Source of the DNA: Pseudonocardiales bacterium
Lineage (GTDB): Bacteria > Actinomycetota > Actinomycetes > Mycobacteriales > Pseudonocardiaceae
Length of the DNA stretch: 37,295 nucleotides
Reading direction: 5' to 3'
Assembly: GCA_003244055.1 (NCBI GenBank)
Contig: QHBZ01000207.1
Location: 1 to 37,295 of the forward strand
Positions 7,956 to 36,751 of the stretch are shown piece after piece. The first letter of the stretch is position 1, and every line of letters starts with the position of its first letter. The position numbers and the translations under genes are program-made. The notes below the pieces were generated by a model, which ran no database searches, was not told where the DNA came from, and saw only the letters and a program-made list of their open reading frames with translations.

Positions 7956-8495
7956 GCCGTCACCTTCTGCCGTGCCGACCGCGGGAGTGGCCATGGCGAG
8001 GACCGGACGACGAAGTAACCCTACTGTCGCCGAGTTCGACAACATGGTTGTCGCCGCGAACGGGGCAGCCTTCACGTCGAACTCGGCGACAACAAAGCAC
8101 CGAACATCGCCATGATCGCGGTATATGTGCCATCGACGACACGTCATGTCGCTTACGGCACACAAGTCGTGATCAACGGCTGGTCAGTCAACGAGCAGCA
8201 GGGCGACGGAGGTAGCGGACGAGCAGCGAGCCGGCGTCGAGGTCGACGGCGCCGTTGCTCCCATCAACCTCCCTTCAGACCGCCGATGCCCAGCGATCCC
8301 TCAGCCTTGTCGGCGCGGTCGTCGCCGCGGTCGTTGGACGCCGCGATCTCCTCTTCGACCTCGCGGACGTAGCTCTCGGGGTCCTTGTCCACCGCCGTGA
8401 CGCCGGCGAAATGCGTGGCCTCGAAGGCGGCGAAAGCGACGGCCAGATCGTGGCGCAGCTGCAGGCGGGCCGACGACCGCCAGGACCCCCCCAGC
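7956..8495. other. 540-base stretch without a supported gene
   Basis: This holds the promoter region of the leftward dehydrogenase, the 16-bp inverted repeat at 8025-8091, and a short leftward frame (8264 to about 8475) with a coding-looking acidic tail ([18 protein letters not shown]). That frame lacks a convincing start and runs into the pirin remnant, so it may be another gene fragment. I could not identify it. Confidence 0.5.
8025..8091. repeat. 16-bp perfect inverted repeat with 35-base spacer
   Basis: The arms are 8025-8040 (TGTCGCCGAGTTCGAC) and 8076-8091, exact reverse complements. It sits 70 bases upstream of the dehydrogenase start. The spacer contains another partial TTGTCGCCG. 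It could be an operator, a folded leader or the end pair of a tiny mobile element. Confidence 0.75.
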
Positions 8496-8702
8496 GTCGC
8501 CCTTGAGGTCCTTGTGCTCGGAGGTCTGCCCATCGGTGAGCCTGTTGCGCACTATGGGCCATTCGTGATGAACACTCGGGCTGAGATCGAGCAGGCGATG
8601 AGGGATTTCCAGTCTGGCCGGTTCGGCAGCATCCCCGCACACGCACTGATGCCCCATGTGCCGGATCCCAACCCGGTTCGAGTGGAACACACTGGGATCT
8701 GA
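8496..8702 (+). pseudogene. pirin C-terminal remnant
   Basis: The frame reads the last part of a pirin-family cupin: [36 protein letters not shown] and a short tail to the stop at 8700-8702. This block is the conserved end of pirins, iron-binding bicupin proteins of which some act as quercetinases or transcription cofactors. The preceding roughly 230 residues, including the N-terminal cupin with its iron ligands, are absent; upstream bases in this frame do not look like pirin. A 5'-deleted relic is the simplest reading. Confidence 0.7.
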
Positions 8703-8704
8703 CG

Positions 8705-9118
8705 CTACTCGATCCGGTCGAGCGCCGGTTCCGGATGCTCGCCCAGGTACTCGAACCACGCCTTCTTAAGGCAGGGGTAACGCTTGGACGCCTCGACCAG
8801 GTTCATGAAGCTGATCACATTCGAGTCGAAACGACGCTGCAACTCGCCATCGGCAATGCGACCGGAACCATCGAAAGCACGGTGGGCCTGCGCGAGGGAG
8901 AACATGTCGGGGAAAACGCGGGCGCCGAGGTGCTCGAAGGGCACGCGCAAGGCCCACAGGCCCCGATTGCCGCCGACCATCGACGGAGACGCCGAGAGCA
9001 ACAGCCCGTGGCGCTCGTTGAACGGCTGCGGACGGAAGCGCGACACCCAGTCGATGGCGTTCTTGAGCACGCCAGGCATGGACGCGTTGTACTCAGGTGA
9101 GCAGACCACGAATTCAAT
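8705..9118 (-). pseudogene. NADPH-dependent FMN reductase, 5'-truncated
   Basis: The frame gives the C-terminal two thirds of a flavodoxin-like FMN reductase: SPEYNASMPGVLKNAIDWVS is the hallmark flavin-binding loop, followed by SPSMVGGNRGLWALR and a helical end. The N-terminal strand and the GSxRxxS phosphate loop that bind FMN are missing. The homology starts exactly where the GH13 gene ends (stop at 9114-9116), and the extra N-terminal residues in the open frame are just antiparallel reading of that gene. A deletion or insertion event joined the two. Residual expression by read-through is possible but would give an apo fragment. Confidence 0.75.
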
Positions 9119-10916
9119 CGTCCTGGGAGAGGATAAGCGTTGTATAGGGGCCGATACTGAGGTTTGCTGACCATGGCAACCCGTCTCGGGGCTGCGACCA
9201 GGTGGTGCAGTCAAGCGAGTGATGATCACCGAAGGTGTCGTCATAACCGGACCAGTCGCTGTTGAACCGCACCCGCCAGACCCCCGACCGAGGCAAACCG
9301 ATCACATAGCTGTCATAGGCGCGGTTGGCGAAGTTGAGCAGGACAACAGTGTCGTCTTGCTGTCCGCCGTCCTTCCACCGGTGGTAGGCGAGCACTTTGT
9401 CCACATCGTTGACGTGGTGCACTTGTACCCCCTCGCCCCGGAGCCCCCGGGTATGTCCTTCGAGGTCCCGCCGGAGGCGGATAAGGTCACGGTAGAGCGC
9501 TAGAATACCGGCGAATGTGTCCTTCTTGGCCCAGTCCACCGGCCGGGAGTCAGCAAACCACAGGTTCTCCAGGAACTCCTGGCCTTGAAACAGCATCGGA
9601 ATACCCGGCGCGGTGAACACCAGCGCTGCACCCAGAGTCGAGCGCTTCTTCGACCACCAGCTGTCGGCGTGCCCGGGATCGATCGCTTCCGGTACCCGCT
9701 CACCGCCGTTGGCATCGGCATCATGGGACTCGGTGAACACCACCCGGGCCAGCGGCTGACCGTCGTACCGACGAGTGACCGCTGCGGCCAAACCCGCCAT
9801 GCTGCGGGCCGCGTCATCCGGGGGGAGCAACGCCTGCCGGACCTGCACGACGAAATCCGGATCCCATTGAGCGGGAAAGCCCGCGCCGCCCTCCGCGGTG
9901 GGCTTGGTGACCCATTCGTTGTTTCGCATGTCCTCAGCGATGCGGATCTTCCAGGGCTGGGCGGTGGCCACGTCGTCGTTGACGGTCTGCAGCAGCCGCC
10001 ACCCCTCGGGGATGTCCTGGCCGGGATCGCTGCCGCCGGTGGCGTTGCGGATGGCGGCGGTGGCGTCCAGGCGCAGGCCGTCCAGCCGGTAGGTGCCCAA
10101 CCAGGACGCGGCGTTGTCTCGGAGATACTGGCGCACCTGCGGGCGGCCGTAATCGGGCCGCGAGCCCCAGCCGGTATCAGCACGCCAGTCCTGGTAGAAA
10201 TAGATCCCGCCCCCATTGTTTTCATACCAACCATCAAATCGCCACAAATCGTGATCGAGGTCCCCGGGGCCGAGGTGGTTGTATACCACATCGAGCAGCA
10301 CGGCTATTCCGAGCTCGTGCGCCGCGTGAACGAAGCCCTTGAGGGCATCCGGTCCCCCATAGGAGGCCTCGACCGCGAATGGCAGCGCCGGGTTATATCC
10401 CCAGGAGCGGTCCCCGGCGAACTCCGCCACCGGCAGTAGCTCGACCGCGGTGATACCCAGGTCACGCAGATAGGGCAATCTCGCGGCGGCGTCCACCAGA
10501 TTCCCGACCTGCCCATCCCCAGCGGGAGCGAAGGTCCCCACGTGGAGCTCGTAAATGACCAATTCGTCCCAAGACGGGGACCGGTAGTCATCTTCTGCCC
10601 AGATGAACGCGGCCTCGTCATAGACCAGTCCGTGGCCGGCCGAATTGGTCACATGCCGGGCATACGGATCAATCCTCAGCAATGACCGATTCTGCCAGGC
10701 GAGTGAATACAGGTAACCGTCCCCTGGTCCCACCTCGGACACATCCCCAGACCAGCAGCCACCCTCCTCGGCCACCAACGCCACGGCCTGACCGGCCGCC
10801 GCACCGCTGAGCAGCTGCACCGACACCTGGGAGGCGTTGGGCGCCCAGACCCGAAAGGTGGTACCGCCGTCGAAGGGGCACGCGCCCATGCCGGGACGCT
10901 GCGAGACTCCCGTCAT
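9114..10916 (-). CDS. GH13 alpha-amylase-family enzyme, branching-enzyme-like with CBM48
   Basis: A 600-residue protein. Residues about 8-100 form an early-set/CBM48 domain (FRVWAPNASQVSV), then a GH13 barrel with all four signatures: DVVYNH near 209-214, the nucleophile in GLRLDATAAIR near 284, the acid in RIAEDMR near 328, and ESHDADANG with the transition-state Asp near 399. The C terminus is an all-beta domain. This suggests an alpha-1,4-glucan branching or related trehalose/glycogen enzyme; malto-oligosyltrehalose trehalohydrolase is the main alternative. The ATG at 10916 follows GGGAGGTG, a strong ribosome site. No glg or tre genes adjoin it. Two palindromes 64-91 bases upstream may regulate it. 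Confidence 0.85.
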   Translation of the reverse strand: MTGVSQRPGMGACPFDGGTTFRVWAPNASQVSVQLLSGAAAGQAVALVAEEGGCWSGDVSEVGPGDGYLYSLAWQNRSLLRIDPYARHVTNSAGHGLVYDEAAFIWAEDDYRSPSWDELVIYELHVGTFAPAGDGQVGNLVDAAARLPYLRDLGITAVELLPVAEFAGDRSWGYNPALPFAVEASYGGPDALKGFVHAAHELGIAVLLDVVYNHLGPGDLDHDLWRFDGWYENNGGGIYFYQDWRADTGWGSRPDYGRPQVRQYLRDNAASWLGTYRLDGLRLDATAAIRNATGGSDPGQDIPEGWRLLQTVNDDVATAQPWKIRIAEDMRNNEWVTKPTAEGGAGFPAQWDPDFVVQVRQALLPPDDAARSMAGLAAAVTRRYDGQPLARVVFTESHDADANGGERVPEAIDPGHADSWWSKKRSTLGAALVFTAPGIPMLFQGQEFLENLWFADSRPVDWAKKDTFAGILALYRDLIRLRRDLEGHTRGLRGEGVQVHHVNDVDKVLAYHRWKDGGQQDDTVVLLNFANRAYDSYVIGLPRSGVWRVRFNSDWSGYDDTFGDHHSLDCTTWSQPRDGLPWSANLSIGPYTTLILSQDD

Positions 10917-13144: not shown

Positions 13145-14341
13145 TCAGTGCTCGCCGTCGGTCGCCGATGGGGCGGGGGGTGCTGATGCCCGGCGGGCGA
13201 GGCGGCGGGCGAGTGGGTCGGCGATGCGTGGGGCCAGCGGTCCGAGTACGGCCATGATCAGCACGTAGGCGGCCACGGTGGGGGCGAAGGCCGGTGTCAC
13301 GGAGGCGCCGACGAGGCCGGCGATGATGATGGAGAACTCGCCGCGGGCGACCAGCGCGGCGCCGGCCCGCAGCCGACCGGCGGGCCCGACTCCGGTGCGC
13401 CGGCCGGCAACCCAGCCGGTGAGCAGCTTGGTCGCGACGCCGACGACGGCGAGCGCGGCGGCGGGCAGCAGCTCCGAGGGCAGCGTAGCGGGGTCGGTGG
13501 TCAGGCCGAAGAAGACGAAGAACACCGCCGCGAAGATGTCGCGCAGCGGTCCAAGCAGGCCGCGGATGTGCTCGGCGACCTCGCCGGATAACGCGATCCC
13601 GAGCAGGAACGCGCCGACCGCAGCCGAGATGTGGGCGGCTTCGGCGGCGCCGGCAACCAGTAGCGCGAGCCCGAGCACCCGCAACAGCAGTACCTCGTCG
13701 GAGCGAGCGCCGACGAACCGGGTCACCGCGTCGCCCTTGCGCAGCGCGAGGGTGAGCACCACCGCAAGCGTGACGAGGGCGATGAGCACCGAGGACACCG
13801 CCGACGCCGGGGTGGAGGCGGCGACCAGCGCGGTGAGCACCGGCAGGTAAGCGGCCATCGCGAGGTCCTCGATCACCAGGACGCTGAGCACCGCCGGTGT
13901 CTCCCGGTTGCCGAGCCGGCCGAGATCGGTGAGGACCTTGGAGATGATCCCCGACGAGCTGATCGCGGTGACTCCGAACATCGCCAGCGCGGCTAGCGGT
14001 CCCCAGCCCAGCACGATCGCGAGCGCAGCGCCGGGCAGGCCGTTGAGCAGCAGGTCGAGCACGCCGACCGGGGCCTGCTGGCGCAAATTGGTGACCAGCT
14101 CGTCAGCGGTGTACTCCAGCCCGAGCACCAGCAGCAACAAGACGACCCCCACCTCGGAGCCGGTGGCGAAGAACCCCTCCGGTGCTTGCAGCGGCAGCAG
14201 GCCGCCGGTACCGAAGGCCAGCCCGGCCAGCATGTACAGGGGGATGGGAGACAGCCCGATGCGCCCCGCGAGCCGGCCGACCGCACCAAGGCCGAACAGC
14301 ACTGCACCCAGCTCGAGCAGCAGACGTGCGGTGTTGTTCAC
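13145..14341 (-). CDS. CPA2-family cation/proton antiporter (Kef-like membrane subunit)
   Basis: A 398-residue integral membrane protein with about twelve hydrophobic helices. It shows the Na/H exchanger core, including LLLVLGLEYTADEL and TAISSSGIISKVL discontinuous helices and the acidic VIEDLAMA motif that carries the ion. A charged C-terminal tail follows. CPA2 members swap K or Na for protons and are gated by RCK/TrkA domains; here the adjacent upstream gene supplies a TrkA-C piece 22 bases away, so the two should work together. It is the last gene of a leftward cluster that also encodes a sensor kinase and a response-regulator fusion. Confidence 0.88.
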   Translation of the reverse strand: MNNTARLLLELGAVLFGLGAVGRLAGRIGLSPIPLYMLAGLAFGTGGLLPLQAPEGFFATGSEVGVVLLLLVLGLEYTADELVTNLRQQAPVGVLDLLLNGLPGAALAIVLGWGPLAALAMFGVTAISSSGIISKVLTDLGRLGNRETPAVLSVLVIEDLAMAAYLPVLTALVAASTPASAVSSVLIALVTLAVVLTLALRKGDAVTRFVGARSDEVLLLRVLGLALLVAGAAEAAHISAAVGAFLLGIALSGEVAEHIRGLLGPLRDIFAAVFFVFFGLTTDPATLPSELLPAAALAVVGVATKLLTGWVAGRRTGVGPAGRLRAGAALVARGEFSIIIAGLVGASVTPAFAPTVAAYVLIMAVLGPLAPRIADPLARRLARRASAPPAPSATDGEH

Positions 14342-14363
14342 GCGGCCTGGTCAGCTTGGCCGG

Positions 14364-14606
14364 TCAGTCCGAGCCCAGCAGGGCGCTGACCGCATGCACC
14401 CCGTCCTCGGTGCCCACCACGATGACCCGATCACCGACCCGGAACCGGAAATCCGGAGTCGGCGAGGCGAACACCTCCTGCCCGCGCAGAACCGCCACCA
14501 CCGACGCGCCGGTGCGGATGGCGGTGTCGCCGAGGGTCCGGTCGGCGAAGGGGGAGCCGGGGGTGATGGGCAAGCCCTCGGTGGCCAGCCCCTCGACCCC
14601 CTTCAT
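14364..14606 (-). CDS. TrkA-C (RCK_C) domain regulator of the antiporter, short form
   Basis: Eighty residues covering a TrkA-C domain: PITPGSPFADRTLGDTAIRT, ASVVAVLRGQEVFASPTPDF and FRVGDRVIVVGTEDGV. Full-length KhtT-type antiporter regulators have a further N-terminal domain of roughly 70-80 residues ending in a helix before VEGLATEGLP; that part is absent. The upstream in-frame sequence lacks a start codon and family similarity, and no ribosome site precedes ATG 14606, so a truncation is likely. The remaining domain could still bind a nucleotide or ion and gate the antiporter. The 75-base gap to the kinase gene contains only a 20-codon mini-frame. Confidence 0.68.
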   Translation of the reverse strand: MKGVEGLATEGLPITPGSPFADRTLGDTAIRTGASVVAVLRGQEVFASPTPDFRFRVGDRVIVVGTEDGVHAVSALLGSD

Positions 14607-14681
14607 CCGGTTACGCCCCAGGCTAGGCGTCTGCGGCGGCCGCCTCGGGTTCAGTGAGCGAGTCCGTCGAGTCGATCGCGT

Positions 14682-16112
14682 TCATGTCCGCGGCTCGTGA
14701 AGCGGTAGGCGGACCTGGAAGCGGGTGTCTCCGGGCTCGGAGCGCACCCGCAGGTCGCCGTGGTGGCGGTTGACCACGATGCGCCAGCTCACGTCGAGCC
14801 CGAGGCCGGTGCCCGAACCGACCGGCTTGGTGGTGAAGAACGGTTCGAAGATGCGCTCGCGGTCGCCCGGAGCGATGCCGGGCCCGGTGTCGGTGATCTC
14901 GACGAGGGCGTGGCCGTCCTCGAGGGCGGTGCGCACGGTCAGCGTGCCGTGGCCGGCCATGGCGTCGGCGGCGTTGTCGATGAGGTTGGTCCAGACCTGG
15001 TTGAGCTCGGCGGGGTAGGCCGGTACGGGGGGCAGGGCGCGGTCGTAGTCCTTGACGACCTTGATGCCGCCACCGAGTTTGCGGGCCAGCATCACCAGGG
15101 TGGCGTCAAGGCCCTCGTGCAGGTCGATCCACTGGTGCGGCGCACGGTCGAGCTGGGAATACTGCTTGGCCGCGTCGACCAGAGCGGAGATCCGTGCGGT
15201 GGCGTCGATGATCTCGCGGAGCAGATTCTCGGTCTCCACGGTGTAGGCCAGCCACCGCAGCGCGCCGTCGAGCAGCTCGACCGGCACGGTCTGGGCGACC
15301 TCGTGCAGGTCGGGCAGGCGCAAGCCGCCGGCGACGAAGACCGCGGCCAGATCCCAACTCTGCCCGACGCCCTGCTCGTCGAGCCAGTCGGCGAGCTCAT
15401 CCTCGAGGTCACCGGTTTGCACGGCCGTCAGCGGCGGGGCGGTCCGCGCACAGCCGACGAACCGCTCCTGGACGGCGGTCAGCGCCCGGAGCTGCGCGCG
15501 GTTGAAATCGCCCTCGGCCAGCAGGGCGAGCTTGTGCCGCATCCCTGCCACCCGGTCGCGCAGCGCGTCGGCGGCCCGCATGGCCGCGGCGGCGGGATTG
15601 TTGAGCTCGTGAGTGAGCCCCGCGGTGAGCTTGCCGAGGGCGAGCAGCCGCTCGCGTTGCCCTACCAGGGCGTTGGAGCTGCTGATCCCGACGAACATGC
15701 CCTGGAGCAGGTGCACGGCCATCGGGAACCAGCGTCGGAACACCTCGGTGAACTCGCGGGTGGGCAGCGCGAGCGACTGGCACGTGGTGAGCGCCCGTAC
15801 GGTCGTCGAGTACGTCTGGTCGACCTGGTCGCCAAGGTAGAACTGGGTCGCGCCGAAGTAGACGCCACGCTGGTCCGTGCGGAGGATCTCGACCCGGTCC
15901 TCGCCGACCCGCTTGGTCATCACCAGGGAGCCGGATAGCAGCACATAGAAATACTGGGCCGGCTCGCCCTCGGTGACGGCCACCGACTCAGCGTCGACGT
16001 CGACCAGGTCCGCGTGCCGGCGTACCCAGTCGAGCTGGTCGTCGCTCAGGTCGGCGAACAGGAACAGTGCCCGCAGGTCGTCGCGGGACCAGCCCTGATC
16101 GAGCCGGCTCAT
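14682..16112 (-). CDS. sensor histidine kinase with N-terminal cyclic-nucleotide-binding domain
   Basis: The protein has 476 residues. Residues about 15-130 form a cNMP-binding beta-roll (FLFADLSDDQLDWV, VAVTEGEPAQYFYVLLSGSL). A HisKA region follows with LTAGLTHELNNPAAAA, phospho-acceptor His near 168. The HATPase domain has QVWTNLIDNAADAM, DTGPGIAPG and GTGLGLDVS. There is no membrane segment, so it is a soluble sensor. The ATG at 16112 overlaps the stop of the upstream response-regulator fusion (ATGA), so the two are translated together. The pair forms a two-component system; the ligand may be cAMP or cGMP, or the roll may be degenerate and only a protein module. The much longer open frame to 16490 is antisense noise. 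Confidence 0.88.
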   Translation of the reverse strand: MSRLDQGWSRDDLRALFLFADLSDDQLDWVRRHADLVDVDAESVAVTEGEPAQYFYVLLSGSLVMTKRVGEDRVEILRTDQRGVYFGATQFYLGDQVDQTYSTTVRALTTCQSLALPTREFTEVFRRWFPMAVHLLQGMFVGISSSNALVGQRERLLALGKLTAGLTHELNNPAAAAMRAADALRDRVAGMRHKLALLAEGDFNRAQLRALTAVQERFVGCARTAPPLTAVQTGDLEDELADWLDEQGVGQSWDLAAVFVAGGLRLPDLHEVAQTVPVELLDGALRWLAYTVETENLLREIIDATARISALVDAAKQYSQLDRAPHQWIDLHEGLDATLVMLARKLGGGIKVVKDYDRALPPVPAYPAELNQVWTNLIDNAADAMAGHGTLTVRTALEDGHALVEITDTGPGIAPGDRERIFEPFFTTKPVGSGTGLGLDVSWRIVVNRHHGDLRVRSEPGDTRFQVRLPLHEPRT

Positions 16113-17767
16113 CGCTCGGCCAGGTAGCGGTGCACCAGCGTCACCGCCATCGCGCCCTCGCCGACCGCGGAGGCAACTCGCTTCACCGACTCCGACCGCA
16201 CGTCGCCGGCGACGAACACGCCGGGCAGGCTGGACTCCAGGTAGTACGGGTCGCGGTCCAGTGGCCAGCCCGGCGGGCGGCGACCCTCGATGAGCAGGTC
16301 CGGTCCGGTGCGCACGAACCCGCGGGTGTCGCGGGTGACCACCCCGTCGAGCCACCCGGTGCCCGGTGCGGCACCGATGAAGACGAACAGATGGCCGGTC
16401 GACACCGTCTCGGTGTGCCCATCGCGGGTGTGCCGCAGCGTGAGCCGCTCCAGGTGGTCGGTGCCGTGGGCGGCCACGACCTCGGTACACGTGCGTACCG
16501 AGATGGTTCCGATCGCCCCGAGCTGCTCGATGAGGTAGTGCGACATCGACCGCTGCAGCGACTCACCGCGCACCAGCAGGACCACGCGAGCCGCGTGCCG
16601 GGAGAAGAACACCGCGGCCTGCCCGGCGGAGTTGGCCCCACCGACGATGTAGACGTCCTGGCCGGCGCAGGCCGGCGCCTCTGTCATCGCCGAGCCGTAG
16701 TAGATCCCGCGGCCGATCAGCTCGGCCACACCTGGCGCTTCCAGCGCGCGGTAGGCGACGCCGGTGGCCAGCACGACCGCGTGCGCGACCACCTCCGAGC
16801 CGTCGCCGAAGCGCACCACCCGTGACGAACCCCGCGCCTGCAAACCGACCACGTCGCGGGCCGACAACGCCTCGGCGCCGAACTTCCGCGCCTGCCGGCG
16901 GGCCCGGTCGGTCAGCTGCGCGCCGGACACCCCGTCAGGAAAGCCCAGGTAGTTCTCGATCCGGCTGCTCTGCCCGGCCTGCCCGCCACTGGCCTGCCGC
17001 TCCACCAGCACCGTGCGCAGTCCCTCCGAGGCCCCGTATACCGCCGCGCCCAGACCGGCCGGGCCGGCGCCCACCACGATCAGGTCATAGAACTGCGCGG
17101 ACGGCCGGGTGGACAGACCGACCGCATCGGCGATCTCAGCATCGCTGGGCCGCCGCAGCGACCGCCCGTCCGGGGTCACCACCAGCGGGATGTCCTCGGC
17201 AGTGGCACCGGCCGCGTCCAGCAGCCGCCGCCCCTCGGGCTCATCCACACTGAACCAGCGGTAGGGCACCGCGTTGCGGGCCAGGAAGTCCCGGGCCTGG
17301 TAGGACGGGGCGGACCAGCGGTGGCCGACGAGCTTCGTCTCCGAGATGTCCGGGTCCCCGGTGGCCCGCCAGAGCTCGAGCAGCGCGTCGACCACCGGGT
17401 AGAGCTTCTCCTCCGGCGGGTTCCACGGTTTGAGCAGGTAGTGGTCCACGTCGACCACGTTGATCGCCTGGATCGCCGCGTCGGTATCAGCGTAGGCGGT
17501 CAACAACGCGCGTCGTGCCCGCGGGAACAGGTCCATCGCCTGCTCGAGGAACTCCACGCCGTTCATCTGCGGCATCCGGTAGTCGGCCAGAATCGCCGCC
17601 ACCGGCTCACCCCGCAGCTTGAACTCCTTGAGCGCGGCTACCCCGTCAGCCGCCGAGTCCGCCCGCACGATGCGGAAATCCTCGCCGTAGCGCCGCCGCA
17701 GATCCCGCGCCACCGCGCGGGACACCCCGGGATCGTCGTCCACGGTCATCAGAACGGGCTTGCCCAT
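16109..17767 (-). CDS. response-regulator receiver fused to thioredoxin-reductase-like flavoprotein
   Basis: The protein has 552 residues. Residues 1-125 are a receiver: acidic VDDD, phospho-acceptor Asp62 in ADYRMP, Thr90, and Lys113 in LLKPW. Residues about 145-215 resemble a thioredoxin/glutaredoxin fold without cysteines. From 226 on is a low-molecular-weight thioredoxin reductase-like module: FAD site VVGAGPAGLGAAVYGASEGL, NADPH site YIVGGANSAGQAA, and the FAD-closing VFVAGDVR. The redox CxxC normally just before the NADPH site is missing; the segment reads TEAPACAGQD with a single Cys. It should therefore bind FAD and NADPH but not reduce thioredoxin in the usual way. Its partner kinase is the overlapping downstream gene. 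Confidence 0.88.
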   Translation of the reverse strand: MGKPVLMTVDDDPGVSRAVARDLRRRYGEDFRIVRADSAADGVAALKEFKLRGEPVAAILADYRMPQMNGVEFLEQAMDLFPRARRALLTAYADTDAAIQAINVVDVDHYLLKPWNPPEEKLYPVVDALLELWRATGDPDISETKLVGHRWSAPSYQARDFLARNAVPYRWFSVDEPEGRRLLDAAGATAEDIPLVVTPDGRSLRRPSDAEIADAVGLSTRPSAQFYDLIVVGAGPAGLGAAVYGASEGLRTVLVERQASGGQAGQSSRIENYLGFPDGVSGAQLTDRARRQARKFGAEALSARDVVGLQARGSSRVVRFGDGSEVVAHAVVLATGVAYRALEAPGVAELIGRGIYYGSAMTEAPACAGQDVYIVGGANSAGQAAVFFSRHAARVVLLVRGESLQRSMSHYLIEQLGAIGTISVRTCTEVVAAHGTDHLERLTLRHTRDGHTETVSTGHLFVFIGAAPGTGWLDGVVTRDTRGFVRTGPDLLIEGRRPPGWPLDRDPYYLESSLPGVFVAGDVRSESVKRVASAVGEGAMAVTLVHRYLAER

Positions 17768-24610: not shown

Positions 24611-25036
24611 TCAGCCAGCGTGGTCGCGTAGCGCCGCCAGGAACGCTCGGAGATCCGCGGGCCCGCTCGTCGCCGCGGTGTGTACCCGGCGCAGATCGAG
24701 CTCGGCGTAAGCGTGCACGACCAGATTACGGAACCCGGCGGCGCGACCCAGCCGCTGTGCCAGCTCGCCGGGTATCAAGCTGGCATTGGCGAGCATTCGG
24801 AATGCATCGGCATAGGTAGGTGGGCTACCCAGCCCGAGCCGCACACAGCTCGACACTGCGAGATCGATCACCACCTGCACGGCCTGCCAGAGGTGCAGGA
24901 CGACCGCATCGGTCTGGGTGTTCAGTGGCTGCATGTCCTCGGCGTGGGGTGACAGGTGCTCGGCGACTCGGCGCAGATGGCGATCCACCGCCGCAGCGCG
25001 CTCGGCGAGCAGCTCGCGGTCGATCGCGACGCTCAT
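24611..25036 (-). CDS. hepT: HepT-type HEPN ribonuclease toxin
   Basis: A 141-residue all-helical HEPN protein. It carries the RX4HXY motif exactly: Arg103, His108 and Tyr110 in GFRNLVVHAY. In characterised MntA-HepT pairs the Arg and His cleave RNA and the Tyr is AMPylated by the partner to silence the toxin. The ATG at 25036 overlaps the stop of the MntA gene (ATGA), giving coupled synthesis with the antitoxin first. Unlike its neighbours it is intact. This is a type VII toxin-antitoxin module, possibly maintaining the otherwise decayed region. Confidence 0.88.
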   Translation of the reverse strand: MSVAIDRELLAERAAAVDRHLRRVAEHLSPHAEDMQPLNTQTDAVVLHLWQAVQVVIDLAVSSCVRLGLGSPPTYADAFRMLANASLIPGELAQRLGRAAGFRNLVVHAYAELDLRRVHTAATSGPADLRAFLAALRDHAG

Positions 25037-25446
25037 CCGAGCGCGGCCAGAACGTCGTCGTGCGCGCTCCGGATGACGGACTCCGTGTCGCACCAGAACT
25101 GAACGGCCTCAAGCTGGAAGCGCTGGAACTCAGCTGGGGAACGTTCCAGCAGGGGGATGCCGTCGCGAGCCGCTCTGTAGCGGAGCAGCGCACTCGTCCG
25201 GCTGAGGTCGACCACGTCGACCTCGTCGGTGCCCAGGATCTCGGTTAGCGTCGCCGACAGCGCCGGCAGGTCCGGGGAGTCGTCGGCGAGCACGCCGATA
25301 TCCCAGTCGGACCCCTCAGCCGCGTCCGCACGCGCTCGGGAACCGTGCAATACAGCGAGCCGCAGCGCTGCGGCCGCGGGTTCCATCGAAAGCCTTTCGC
25401 GCAGCTCCGCCGGGGTCACGGTGACCAGCTTACGGCGGGCCGCCAC
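25033..25446 (-). CDS. mntA: MntA-type minimal nucleotidyltransferase antitoxin
   Basis: The protein is 137 residues long with the minimal nucleotidyltransferase signature GSX10DXD: Gly35-Ser36 then Asp47 and Asp49 in HGSRARADAAEGSDWD. A third acidic position follows in VDVVDL. This domain transfers AMP to the HepT tyrosine. GTG at 25446 gives a positively charged start; a later GTG about seven codons in is possible. It is the first gene of the two-gene pair. About 100 bases separate it from the substrate-binding-protein remnant upstream, enough for its own promoter, which I could not define. Confidence 0.87.
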   Translation of the reverse strand: MAARRKLVTVTPAELRERLSMEPAAAALRLAVLHGSRARADAAEGSDWDIGVLADDSPDLPALSATLTEILGTDEVDVVDLSRTSALLRYRAARDGIPLLERSPAEFQRFQLEAVQFWCDTESVIRSAHDDVLAALG

Positions 25447-34368: not shown

Positions 34369-34424
34369 TCCTCGCTCAACGGTCTTCGCTCAACGGTCTT
34401 CGCTCAGCTGTGTTCGCTCATTCG
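34369..34424. repeat. four 14-bp tandem repeats in a divergent promoter region
   Basis: Four consecutive copies of a 14-base unit share TTCGCTCA (first copy CTCGCTCA): 34369-34382, 34383-34396, 34397-34410 and 34411-34424. The second differs from the first by one base; the last two diverge in their final bases. They begin ten bases upstream of the DUF3105 start. Direct repeats of this kind can be regulator sites or unstable leader sequence. Confidence 0.8.
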
Positions 34425-34538
34425 AGGTCTGCTGCCAGAGCGCGGCGTCAGTGTAAGGACTCCCCGTTATGGGCGACTGCGCCCGGGTCCCCACACTGGT
34501 TGCCCGGATGGGCGCGATACCTCCCTAGACTCGCAGGC

Positions 34539-35333
34539 GTGACTCCCGCTGCGCTCGCCGACCTGGTCCGGTCCGTCGCCCACGATGTGCTGACCGGCCG
34601 TGGTCTGGACCCCGTCGTGCTTCCGGCGACGGTGTCCATCGAACGCCCGCGGGTCCCCGACCACGGCGACTATGCGACCAATGTGGCGTTGCGGACCGGG
34701 CCCAGGGTAGGAGTGCCACCGCGGGAGTTCGCCGGCTGGCTGGCGCACGCACTGGACCAGCGCCACGAAGTGCGCTCCGTGGAGGTCGCCGGACCCGGTT
34801 TCCTCAACCTGCGGCTGGCCCCCGACGCGCAGAGCGACATCGTCGCGCAGGTGCTCGCCGCCGGGGAGCGCTTAGGTCTTCAAGGCCGGCCAACCCGCCG
34901 GTTGGCCGGCCTTGAAGACCTACCAACCGTCCGCGAAGCGCAGTATGTGCACGCCAGGCTGGCGGCGCTGGGCCGCAACGCCTCCGATCTTGGCATCACC
35001 TACCAGGGCGCCCAGCTCGCGCTGCTCGACCACGAGCTGGAGGGCGATTTGATCCGCACACTAGGTGAGTTCCCGCGCATCGTGGCCGCGGCGGCGACAG
35101 CGGCAGCGGCGTTGGGGAACGCCGACCCCCGCGCGCCGCACCGGGTAGCCCGTTACCTCGAGCAGCTGGTCACGGCGTATCACCGGTTCGACGGTAGCTG
35201 CCGGGTACTGCCGATGGGAGATGAGCAACCAGGGCCCCGCCACGCCGCGCGGCTGGCGTTGTGCGAGGCGACCCGCCAGGTGCTGGCCAACGGCCTCGGC
35301 CTGCTCGGGGTCAGCGCACCGGAGCGGATGTGA
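34539..35333 (+). CDS. ArgS-related protein lacking the catalytic domain
   Basis: The protein has 264 residues. Residues about 1-105 are the arginyl-tRNA synthetase N-terminal (Add-1) domain, with [16 protein letters not shown] and [14 protein letters not shown]. Residues about 130-264 are the DALR anticodon-binding domain, with [33 protein letters not shown] and [19 protein letters not shown]. The whole Rossmann core with HIGH and KMSK-type motifs is absent, so it cannot charge tRNA. I recall a database family name, NrtL, for such proteins beside lysA in actinomycetes, but could not check it. It may bind tRNA-Arg or regulate the operon. GTG 34539 opens the family sequence; its end overlaps lysA by three bases. 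Confidence 0.87.
34873..34922. repeat. 23-bp perfect inverted repeat inside the ArgS-like gene
   Basis: Arms 34873-34895 and 34900-34922 are exact reverse complements around a four-base loop (CGCC), all within coding sequence. It encodes the linker between the N-terminal and anticodon-binding domains ([17 protein letters not shown]). A transcript would form a very stable hairpin in the middle of the message. Confidence 0.95.
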
Positions 35334-36751
35334 GGGCGCATCCGGCCGGGCCGCGCCATGCCGACGTGCTGGCCCGTTCCTCCACCGCGGGCCCGTGTCC
35401 CACGGGCCCGGCCGACCTGAACGTGCTGCACCCCGCGGTGTGGCCGCGCGGAGCGCACCGCGGTGATGACGGCGCGGTGCGGTTGGCCGGCGTGGAGGTC
35501 GGCGAGCTCGCTGAGACCTACGGCACCCCGCTTTTTGTGGTGGACGAGGCAGACTTCCGGGCCCGCTGCGCCGAGCACGCTGCCGCCTTCGGCGCGCCAG
35601 AGCGGGTGCACTACGCGGCCAAGGCGTTCCTGTGCTCGGAGATCGCTCGCTGGGTTGCCGAGCAGGGCCTGAGCCTGGACGTGTGCACCGGCACCGAGCT
35701 CGCCGTCGCACTGCACGCGGGTTTCCCCGCGCACCGGATCGCGATGCACGGCAACAACAAGTCCTCCGACGAGCTGACCGCCGCCGTTGCCGCCGGAATC
35801 GGCGCGGTGGTGCTCGACTCCTTCCTGGAGATCGCCCGGCTGGACGACATCGCTCGCCGCCACGGCGTGACGCAGCCGGTGCTGATCCGAGCGACGGTGG
35901 GCGTCGAGGCGCATACCCACGAGTTCATCGCCACCGCGCACGAAGACCAGAAGTTCGGGTTCTCGCTGGCGGCCGGAGACGCCGCCGAAGCCGTCCGCCG
36001 GGTGCTCAAATCCGAGGGCCTGCGGCTGGTGGGGCTGCACAGTCACATCGGCTCGCAGATATTCGACGCCGACGGCTTCGAGCTTGCGGCACACCGGATG
36101 GTCGCTCTGCTCGCAGCGATCCGGGACGAGCACGGGCCCGACGCCATCTCCGATATCTCCATCCTGGATCTCGGCGGTGGCCTGGGTATCGCCTACACCG
36201 CAGACGACGATCCGCCTCGACCGGCCATGCTGGCGGCACACCTGCGGGCCGTCGTGGACGCTCGGTGCCAGGCGGCCGGCTTGCCCACCCCCGGGCTGGT
36301 TGTCGAGCCGGGCCGGGCGATCGCCGGACCCGGCACGGTGACCCTGTACGAAGTGGGCACCACGAAAGACATCACTGTGGTGGCATCGACGCGGCGGCGT
36401 TACGTGTCGGTGGACGGTGGGATGAGCGACAACGTGCGCACCGCGCTGTACGACGCGAGCTACGACTGCCGGTTGGTGTCGCGCCGCTCCGAGGCTGAGG
36501 GCGCGCTGTCCCGGGTGGTCGGCAAGCATTGCGAGACCGGCGACGTGGTGGTCCGGGACTGCTGGCTCCCGGACGACCTCGCGCCGGGTGATCTGGTGGC
36601 TGTCGCCGGGACCGGGGCGTACTGCTACTCGATGTCCAGCCGGTACAACCTGGTGCCGCGCCCGGCGGTCGTTGCGGTGCGTGACGGCGCCCACCGGCTG
36701 CTGCTTCGCCGGGAGACGTTGGCTGACCTGCTGTCCCTGGAGGTCTCGTGA
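35330..36751 (+). CDS. lysA: diaminopimelate decarboxylase
   Basis: A 473-residue fold type III PLP enzyme that converts meso-diaminopimelate to L-lysine, the last step of the pathway. It shows the N-terminal [12 protein letters not shown] typical of actinobacterial LysA, the Schiff-base lysine in [10 protein letters not shown] near 98, [18 protein letters not shown], the [10 protein letters not shown] phosphate loop, [15 protein letters not shown], and [16 protein letters not shown] with [14 protein letters not shown] from the partner subunit's site. GTG at 35330 overlaps the preceding stop, and the next gene starts inside its stop codon, so the three genes are translationally coupled. A hairpin lies about 60 bases into the gene. 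Confidence 0.95.
35388..35410. repeat. 10-bp GC-rich hairpin near the start of lysA
   Basis: Arms CGGGCCCGTG (35388-35397) and CACGGGCCCG (35401-35410) are exact reverse complements around a three-base loop. It lies about 20 codons into lysA, in the variable stretch before PADLN. It could slow translation or transcription early in the gene. Confidence 0.85.

Follow-up and report, generated by a model that had tools for sequence, protein, structure and literature searches.

In this work we have analysed a window of 37,295 nucleotides from a Pseudonocardiales bacterium (GenBank assembly GCA_003244055.1, contig QHBZ01000207.1, positions 1 to 37,295) and specifically four of its minus-strand genes, which encode a receiver–flavoprotein fusion, a histidine kinase, a short TrkA_C-only product and an antiporter. 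All four lie where the first-pass annotation of this DNA had placed them, and the four-base overlap which it reported between kinase and fusion is indeed present, the bases ATGA (16112-16109) being common to both genes. The features are the following:

16109..17767, minus strand: receiver–glutaredoxin-like–thioredoxin-reductase-like fusion, 552 aa (Pfam: Response_reg and Pyr_redox_2, the latter at residues 227-538)
17414..17749, minus strand: receiver (REC) of the fusion, residues 7-118 (Pfam; D10-12, T90 and K113 invariant)
17582..17584, minus strand: codon of the predicted phospho-acceptor Asp62 of the fusion (Asp in 81/81 aligned sequences)
17114..17341, minus strand: degenerate glutaredoxin-like domain of the fusion, residues 143-218, with no cysteine (structure model)
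16115..17095, minus strand: TrxR-like FAD/NAD(P) domain of the fusion, residues 225-551 (Pfam, profile scores, structure match)
16682..16693, minus strand: S-A-M-T, fusion residues 359-362, at the position of the TrxR dithiol C-A-T-C (alignment)
16109..16112, minus strand: ATGA, 4-bp overlap of the fusion stop and the kinase start (sequence)
14682..16112, minus strand: histidine kinase, 476 aa, apparently soluble, with CAP-type sensor, DHp and HATPase (Pfam: cNMP_binding 39-126, HisKA 159-187 (weak), HATPase_c 368-472)
15729..16076, minus strand: CAP/cNMP-fold sensor of the kinase, residues 13-128, with Ala88 and Tyr101 at the canonical Glu and Arg sites (structure comparison, alignment)
15609..15611, minus strand: codon of the predicted phosphorylated His168 of the kinase, in H-E-L-N-N-P (alignment)
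15282..15512, minus strand: insertion of four helices, residues 201-277 of the kinase, separating its two DHp helices (structure model)
14697..15011, minus strand: HATPase_c catalytic domain of the kinase, residues 368-472 (Pfam)
14364..14606, minus strand: TrkA_C-only ORF (the "RCK stub"), 80 aa, outside the system (Pfam: TrkA_C alone; 5'-truncated remnant of an antiporter regulator of ~160 aa)
13145..14341, minus strand: CPA2-type cation:proton antiporter, 398 aa, an incidental neighbour (Pfam: Na_H_Exchanger)

Kinase and receiver–flavoprotein fusion form a real, intact and conserved pair. We compared 80 fusion loci from 80 species-level genomes (68-82% identity to the fusion, up to 10 kb of flank per side, full 10 kb flanks in 57), and a kinase homologue adjoined the fusion or lay near it in 79 of them, far above chance; at the sole exception the contig ends 138 bases past the match. 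In two of the 79 the kinase is separated from the fusion, by 1.1 and 3.9 kb, and the identical 4-bp overlap is frequent among related loci. A tally of neighbours at the 80 loci found no further gene family conserved around the fusion at a level like that of the kinase, and downstream of the kinase nothing was common to all same-genus loci. The first-pass annotation had stated that similar pairs occur in actinomycetes, which is borne out, and the pair reaches into the cyanobacteria and Burkholderiaceae as well: it was found in Gloeothece (fusion, then kinase), Nostoc (genes ~2.6 kb apart) and Caballeronia. Its view that the output is something other than a DNA-binding domain is supported as well. 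The core flavoprotein itself was present in 51 of the 101 relatives whose genomes were searched, about half. In Caballeronia sp. NK8 (L107:4484-9062), one receiver–flavoprotein gene is flanked by two different kinase homologues.

The kinase looks soluble, with no transmembrane segment evident by eye. Its H-box, N-box and G-box are all recognizable, since H168, N376, N380, D408xGxG and GTGLGL are invariant, and so is the whole stretch H168-E169-L-N-N. The HExxN motif is typical of bifunctional kinase/phosphatases, and by analogy with known kinase families it suggests that the protein may have both activities. His168 of the kinase and Asp62 of the receiver had been named beforehand as the phosphorylated residues; both positions are correct and both residues are invariant in the alignments. 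The model of the kinase has four extra helices (201-277) between the DHp helices, an insertion which is found family-wide with Trp243 and Trp253 invariant. DNR is among the best solved structural relatives of the CAP domain, in which Tyr85 and Arg78 are invariant. The phosphate-binding Glu of CRP is, however, replaced by Ala in 77 of 80 sequences and the Arg by Tyr in 79 of 80 (Ala88 and Tyr101 in the window). Because of these two replacements canonical binding of cAMP or cGMP is unlikely; we rejected sensing through the canonical pocket, and the cyclic-nucleotide signal which had been proposed for this system is improbable by that route.

In the fusion, the receiver retains every residue expected of a response regulator, as the acid pair D10-12, Asp62, T90 and K113 are all invariant in the alignments, and a cognate kinase is encoded alongside it, as the neighbourhoods and the overlapping genes show. 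The middle domain (residues 144-215) is modelled by AlphaFold as a thioredoxin/glutaredoxin-like beta-alpha-beta-alpha-beta-beta-alpha fold with a mean pLDDT of 79.7; matches to Glutaredoxin (PF00462) were weak and confined to 2 of 45 relatives. AhpF was the top Foldseek match of the flavoprotein, which keeps a TrxB-type FAD region with GAGPAG (GxGxxG) and GGQAGQSSRIENYLGFP (the GGQ...IENYxGFP region). The catalytic cysteines, however, are gone: CATC of the E. coli enzyme aligns with SAMT in the window fusion, and a CxxC at the dithiol site was absent from all relatives aligned, from Actinomycetota, Cyanobacteriota, Pseudomonadota and Deinococcota. The window protein has only two cysteines, none before residue 367, so that the N-terminal redox CxxC of AhpF is missing too and the Grx-like fold stands without cysteine. 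C367 is the only cysteine conserved among close relatives (80 of 81), and it is missing from several distant ones. Of the three arginines in the HRRxxxR motif by which TrxB binds the 2'-phosphate of NADPH only the first, R400, is kept; the NCBIfam model TIGR01292 scores the fusion at 205 bits, below its cut-off of 343; and GGxNSAGQA and SxKRVA..VGEG are family signatures which replace TrxB residues.

Judged by these residues, the flavoprotein is best described as a predicted flavin/dinucleotide protein without a dithiol relay, and its reading as a disulfide reductase has no basis beyond the name; the whole family is labelled thioredoxin reductase despite the missing catalytic cysteines. We rejected classical TrxR or AhpF activity on residues, with CxxC lost and two cysteines in all. 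The earlier description of a receiver/thioredoxin-reductase fusion therefore stands for the receiver and the TrxR-like fold and falls for a working thioredoxin reductase, given the change from CATC to SAMT and the Grx-like domain devoid of cysteine. Likewise, the NADPH-dependent chemistry which it foresaw is unlikely to be disulfide chemistry, because none of the relatives examined has a CxxC at the site. The flavoprotein shares the two-domain FAD/NAD(P) fold with E. coli TrxB and with AhpF, and AhpF has in addition an N-terminal Trx-fold domain; unlike both, our protein has neither a catalytic CxxC nor HRRxxxR, and no cysteines in its Grx-like domain.

The core occurs in three forms: some proteins have a receiver joined to it, some a CAP-fold domain and some neither of these. 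Since the same core is found in all of them the N-terminus appears to be an exchangeable input. The N-terminal types clustered strongly in a tree built from the TrxR part, in which the deep branching was not resolved. We infer a one-component form, with the CAP domain on the enzyme itself, and a two-component form, with the CAP domain on the kinase and the signal passed on as phosphate. One CAP-fused protein, ATII-TrxR, has been expressed; it is reported to use NADPH and NADH with Km values of 5.2 and 4.2 uM and to reduce DTNB and thioredoxin (PMC6544261). Its cysteines 206, 223 and 376 match three cysteines of a Cupriavidus metallidurans homologue (L112) with one constant offset, which suggests that ATII-TrxR belongs to the family of the window flavoprotein; the core of the C. 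metallidurans protein is 43% identical to that of the window. Both are like the window fusion in having a Grx-like and TrxR-like core without CxxC (for ATII-TrxR, as judged by its cysteine pattern), and differ from it in their input, which is a fused CAP domain in place of a receiver with a separate kinase. The REC–TrxR architecture is already known: a 2018 census of archaeal two-component systems (PMC5847659) includes, in the passages found, REC–thioredoxin reductase regulators under the term "Mycobacterium-like combination", which share with the window fusion a receiver and a TrxR-type domain. Those same passages hold nothing on a kinase, a mechanism, the loss of CxxC, the Grx-like middle domain or a link to UBP. 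No paper on the system was returned by literature searches for a response regulator fused to a thioredoxin reductase or for UBP together with an FAD oxidoreductase, and the literature searched contained no description of the kinase partnership, the dithiol loss, the non-canonical CAP pocket or the linkage of UBP with antiporters.

The UBP zinc finger is known chiefly from ubiquitin recognition in eukaryotes, and the papers searched described no function for it in bacteria. A small gene of this type lies beside the pair at 16 of the 80 loci. UBP genes are also near the core in several plasmid-borne relatives, from Tsukamurella (directly after the kinase), Rhodococcus, Paraburkholderia, Burkholderia, Agrobacterium and Rhizobium, and 26 of 96 UBP matches in relatives were no more than 5 kb away from the core. 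Among the 101 related genomes, UBP was present in 47 of the 51 with the core and in 17 of the 50 without it (Fisher p 5e-10, a value which ignores relatedness and genome size). We also examined 49 UBP loci, most of them distant from the core; long open frames were one criterion in their selection. At 20 of them UBP and a cation:proton exchanger form a single in-frame fusion (NhaP-type in 16, KefB-type in 4; Pfam confirmed TrkA_N in the two fusions scanned), and at another 10 it lies ~50-220 bp from an NhaP-type gene, so that it is fused or adjacent to an antiporter at 30 of the 49. The genome of the window has a lone UBP gene on another contig (L150:7958-9837, contig C283; 8251..7958, minus strand), divergent from an NhaP-type antiporter gene (8266..9837, plus strand) at a distance of ~15 bp, and relatives of this antiporter carry UBP as a C-terminal fusion. 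A genome of the same order has, at L098:3407-10537, a cluster in which a divergently oriented kinase/fusion pair is found together with a fusion of a KefB-type antiporter, TrkA_N and UBP and with one more UBP finger. On a Rhodococcus plasmid (L111:1-7687) the genes dnaK-grpE-J-domain-cbpM-clpB-trxA-UBP-CAP/flavoprotein core-DUF1931 run in one direction, an order which suggests a proteostasis context for the flavoprotein family; one Paraburkholderia relative has a Clp/Hsp20/HdeD/PsiE neighbourhood. The locus of heat resistance, which contains kefB and a thioredoxin, was considered as well, and the window bears no resemblance to that island.

On balance we favour a soluble two-component system with the flavoprotein as its output, from which the antiporter and stub of the window are excluded and in which UBP is a partner in many relatives. 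According to this model, the kinase would sense a signal, probably not cAMP or cGMP by the canonical pocket, through its degenerate CAP-fold domain. It would then autophosphorylate on His168 and pass the phosphate to Asp62 of the receiver, as the invariant catalytic residues and the operon structure imply, and the receiver would in turn gate the TrxR-like FAD/NAD(P)H protein at the post-translational level. Because the flavoprotein has lost both redox dithiols, its action may be flavin-only electron transfer or a conformational switch, and is probably not that of a TrxB- or AhpF-type disulfide reductase. In many relatives it would work together with the UBP-type zinc-finger protein, to which it is linked by gene position. 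Metabolic-type flavoproteins of this kind are a seldom-studied class of response regulator outputs, and the UBP linkage offers a concrete partner which connects cation/proton antiporters with a two-component system and a flavin protein. What counts against this model is that the UBP gene of the window's own genome is on a different contig from the pair and that, by analogy, the activity of ATII-TrxR (PMC6544261) may leave room for some disulfide reduction without CxxC.

Could the protein be a true NAD(P)H-dependent thioredoxin or disulfide reductase after all, switched by phosphorylation and acting through a cysteine outside CxxC or through the flavin directly? The TrxR fold and superfamily scores are consistent with it, trxA or DsbA genes adjoin some relatives, and ATII-TrxR, which is CAP-fused and has the cysteine pattern of the same family, is reported to act on DTNB and Trx (PMC6544261). 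We nevertheless consider it unlikely, as every relative examined lacks CxxC at the site, the window protein has so few cysteines, the fairly conserved C367 is missing in several relatives and the score falls well short of the NCBIfam cut-off. A more specific version of the two-component model, in which Na+(K+)/H+ antiporters, and possibly proteostasis partners too, would be direct targets of the phosphorylated flavoprotein via UBP domains, seems rather unlikely; if it were true, the kinase and the NAD(P)H state would set ion exchange post-translationally, with no transcription step. Finally, it is quite doubtful that the flavoprotein is not an output but a sensor of redox or NAD(P)H state which feeds back on the kinase, as a phosphate sink or by control of the phosphatase. 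The loss of the redox dithiols while FAD and dinucleotide motifs stay, the HExxN motif of the kinase and the lack of a conserved third regulator beside the pair would fit such a role, but the pathway would then be left without an output and would need a separate downstream regulator, and none is linked.

Returning to the two-component model, we excluded the antiporter and the RCK stub as incidental neighbours outside the system. Neither the antiporter nor TrkA_C was found near the fusion at any of the 80 loci (57 with 10 kb flanks), nor beside the pair at any of the five same-genus loci with flanks. Antiporter homologues of relatives lie elsewhere in the genome, with a regulator adjacent at all 20 loci fetched, the window included, and at each of the other 19 this regulator is full-length, with an N-terminal domain of ~85 residues ahead of TrkA_C. 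It is therefore highly improbable that all four genes form one circuit, with the stub as the means by which the pair controls the antiporter next to it: the shared strand and tight spacing in the window favour this, as does the antiporter–TrkA_N–UBP fusion next to the pair at L098, but that antiporter differs from the window's (34% identity) and is on the opposite strand, and the synteny rejects the circuit. The four-gene unit of the first-pass annotation thus failed the co-occurrence check; the antiporter pair in the same direction is there in the sequence, as it said, in an arrangement that is not conserved. Its suggestion of ion flux does not hold for the antiporter of the window and survives as an indirect link, in that the UBP zinc finger joins the flavoprotein family to other antiporters.

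The antiporter and stub are of the same kind as CPA2 antiporters with a cytosolic TrkA_C regulator (KhtTU-like), and differ from them in that the regulator lacks its N-terminal half. In the nearest relative of the antiporter (L118, same genus, 88% identity) the regulator has ~160 aa; from the window stub that half is missing, and so are two residues of TrkA_C. The simplest reading is that a local rearrangement put a truncated regulator and the antiporter behind the kinase; there may alternatively be a faulty join at the truncated regulator, in an assembly of 379 contigs. Between stub and kinase, at 14606-14682, an ORF of 20 codons (MNAIDSTDSLTEPEAAAADA) shares the bases ATGA with the kinase stop and is similar, in another frame, to the central part of the regulator; it is possibly a scar of the regulator deletion.

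Elsewhere in the window we noticed a HepT/MNT-type nucleotidyltransferase toxin–antitoxin pair at 24611-25446 and, at 34410-36751, an ORF which has the N-terminal and anticodon-binding domains only of arginyl-tRNA synthetase and is directly followed by a diaminopimelate-decarboxylase-like gene.
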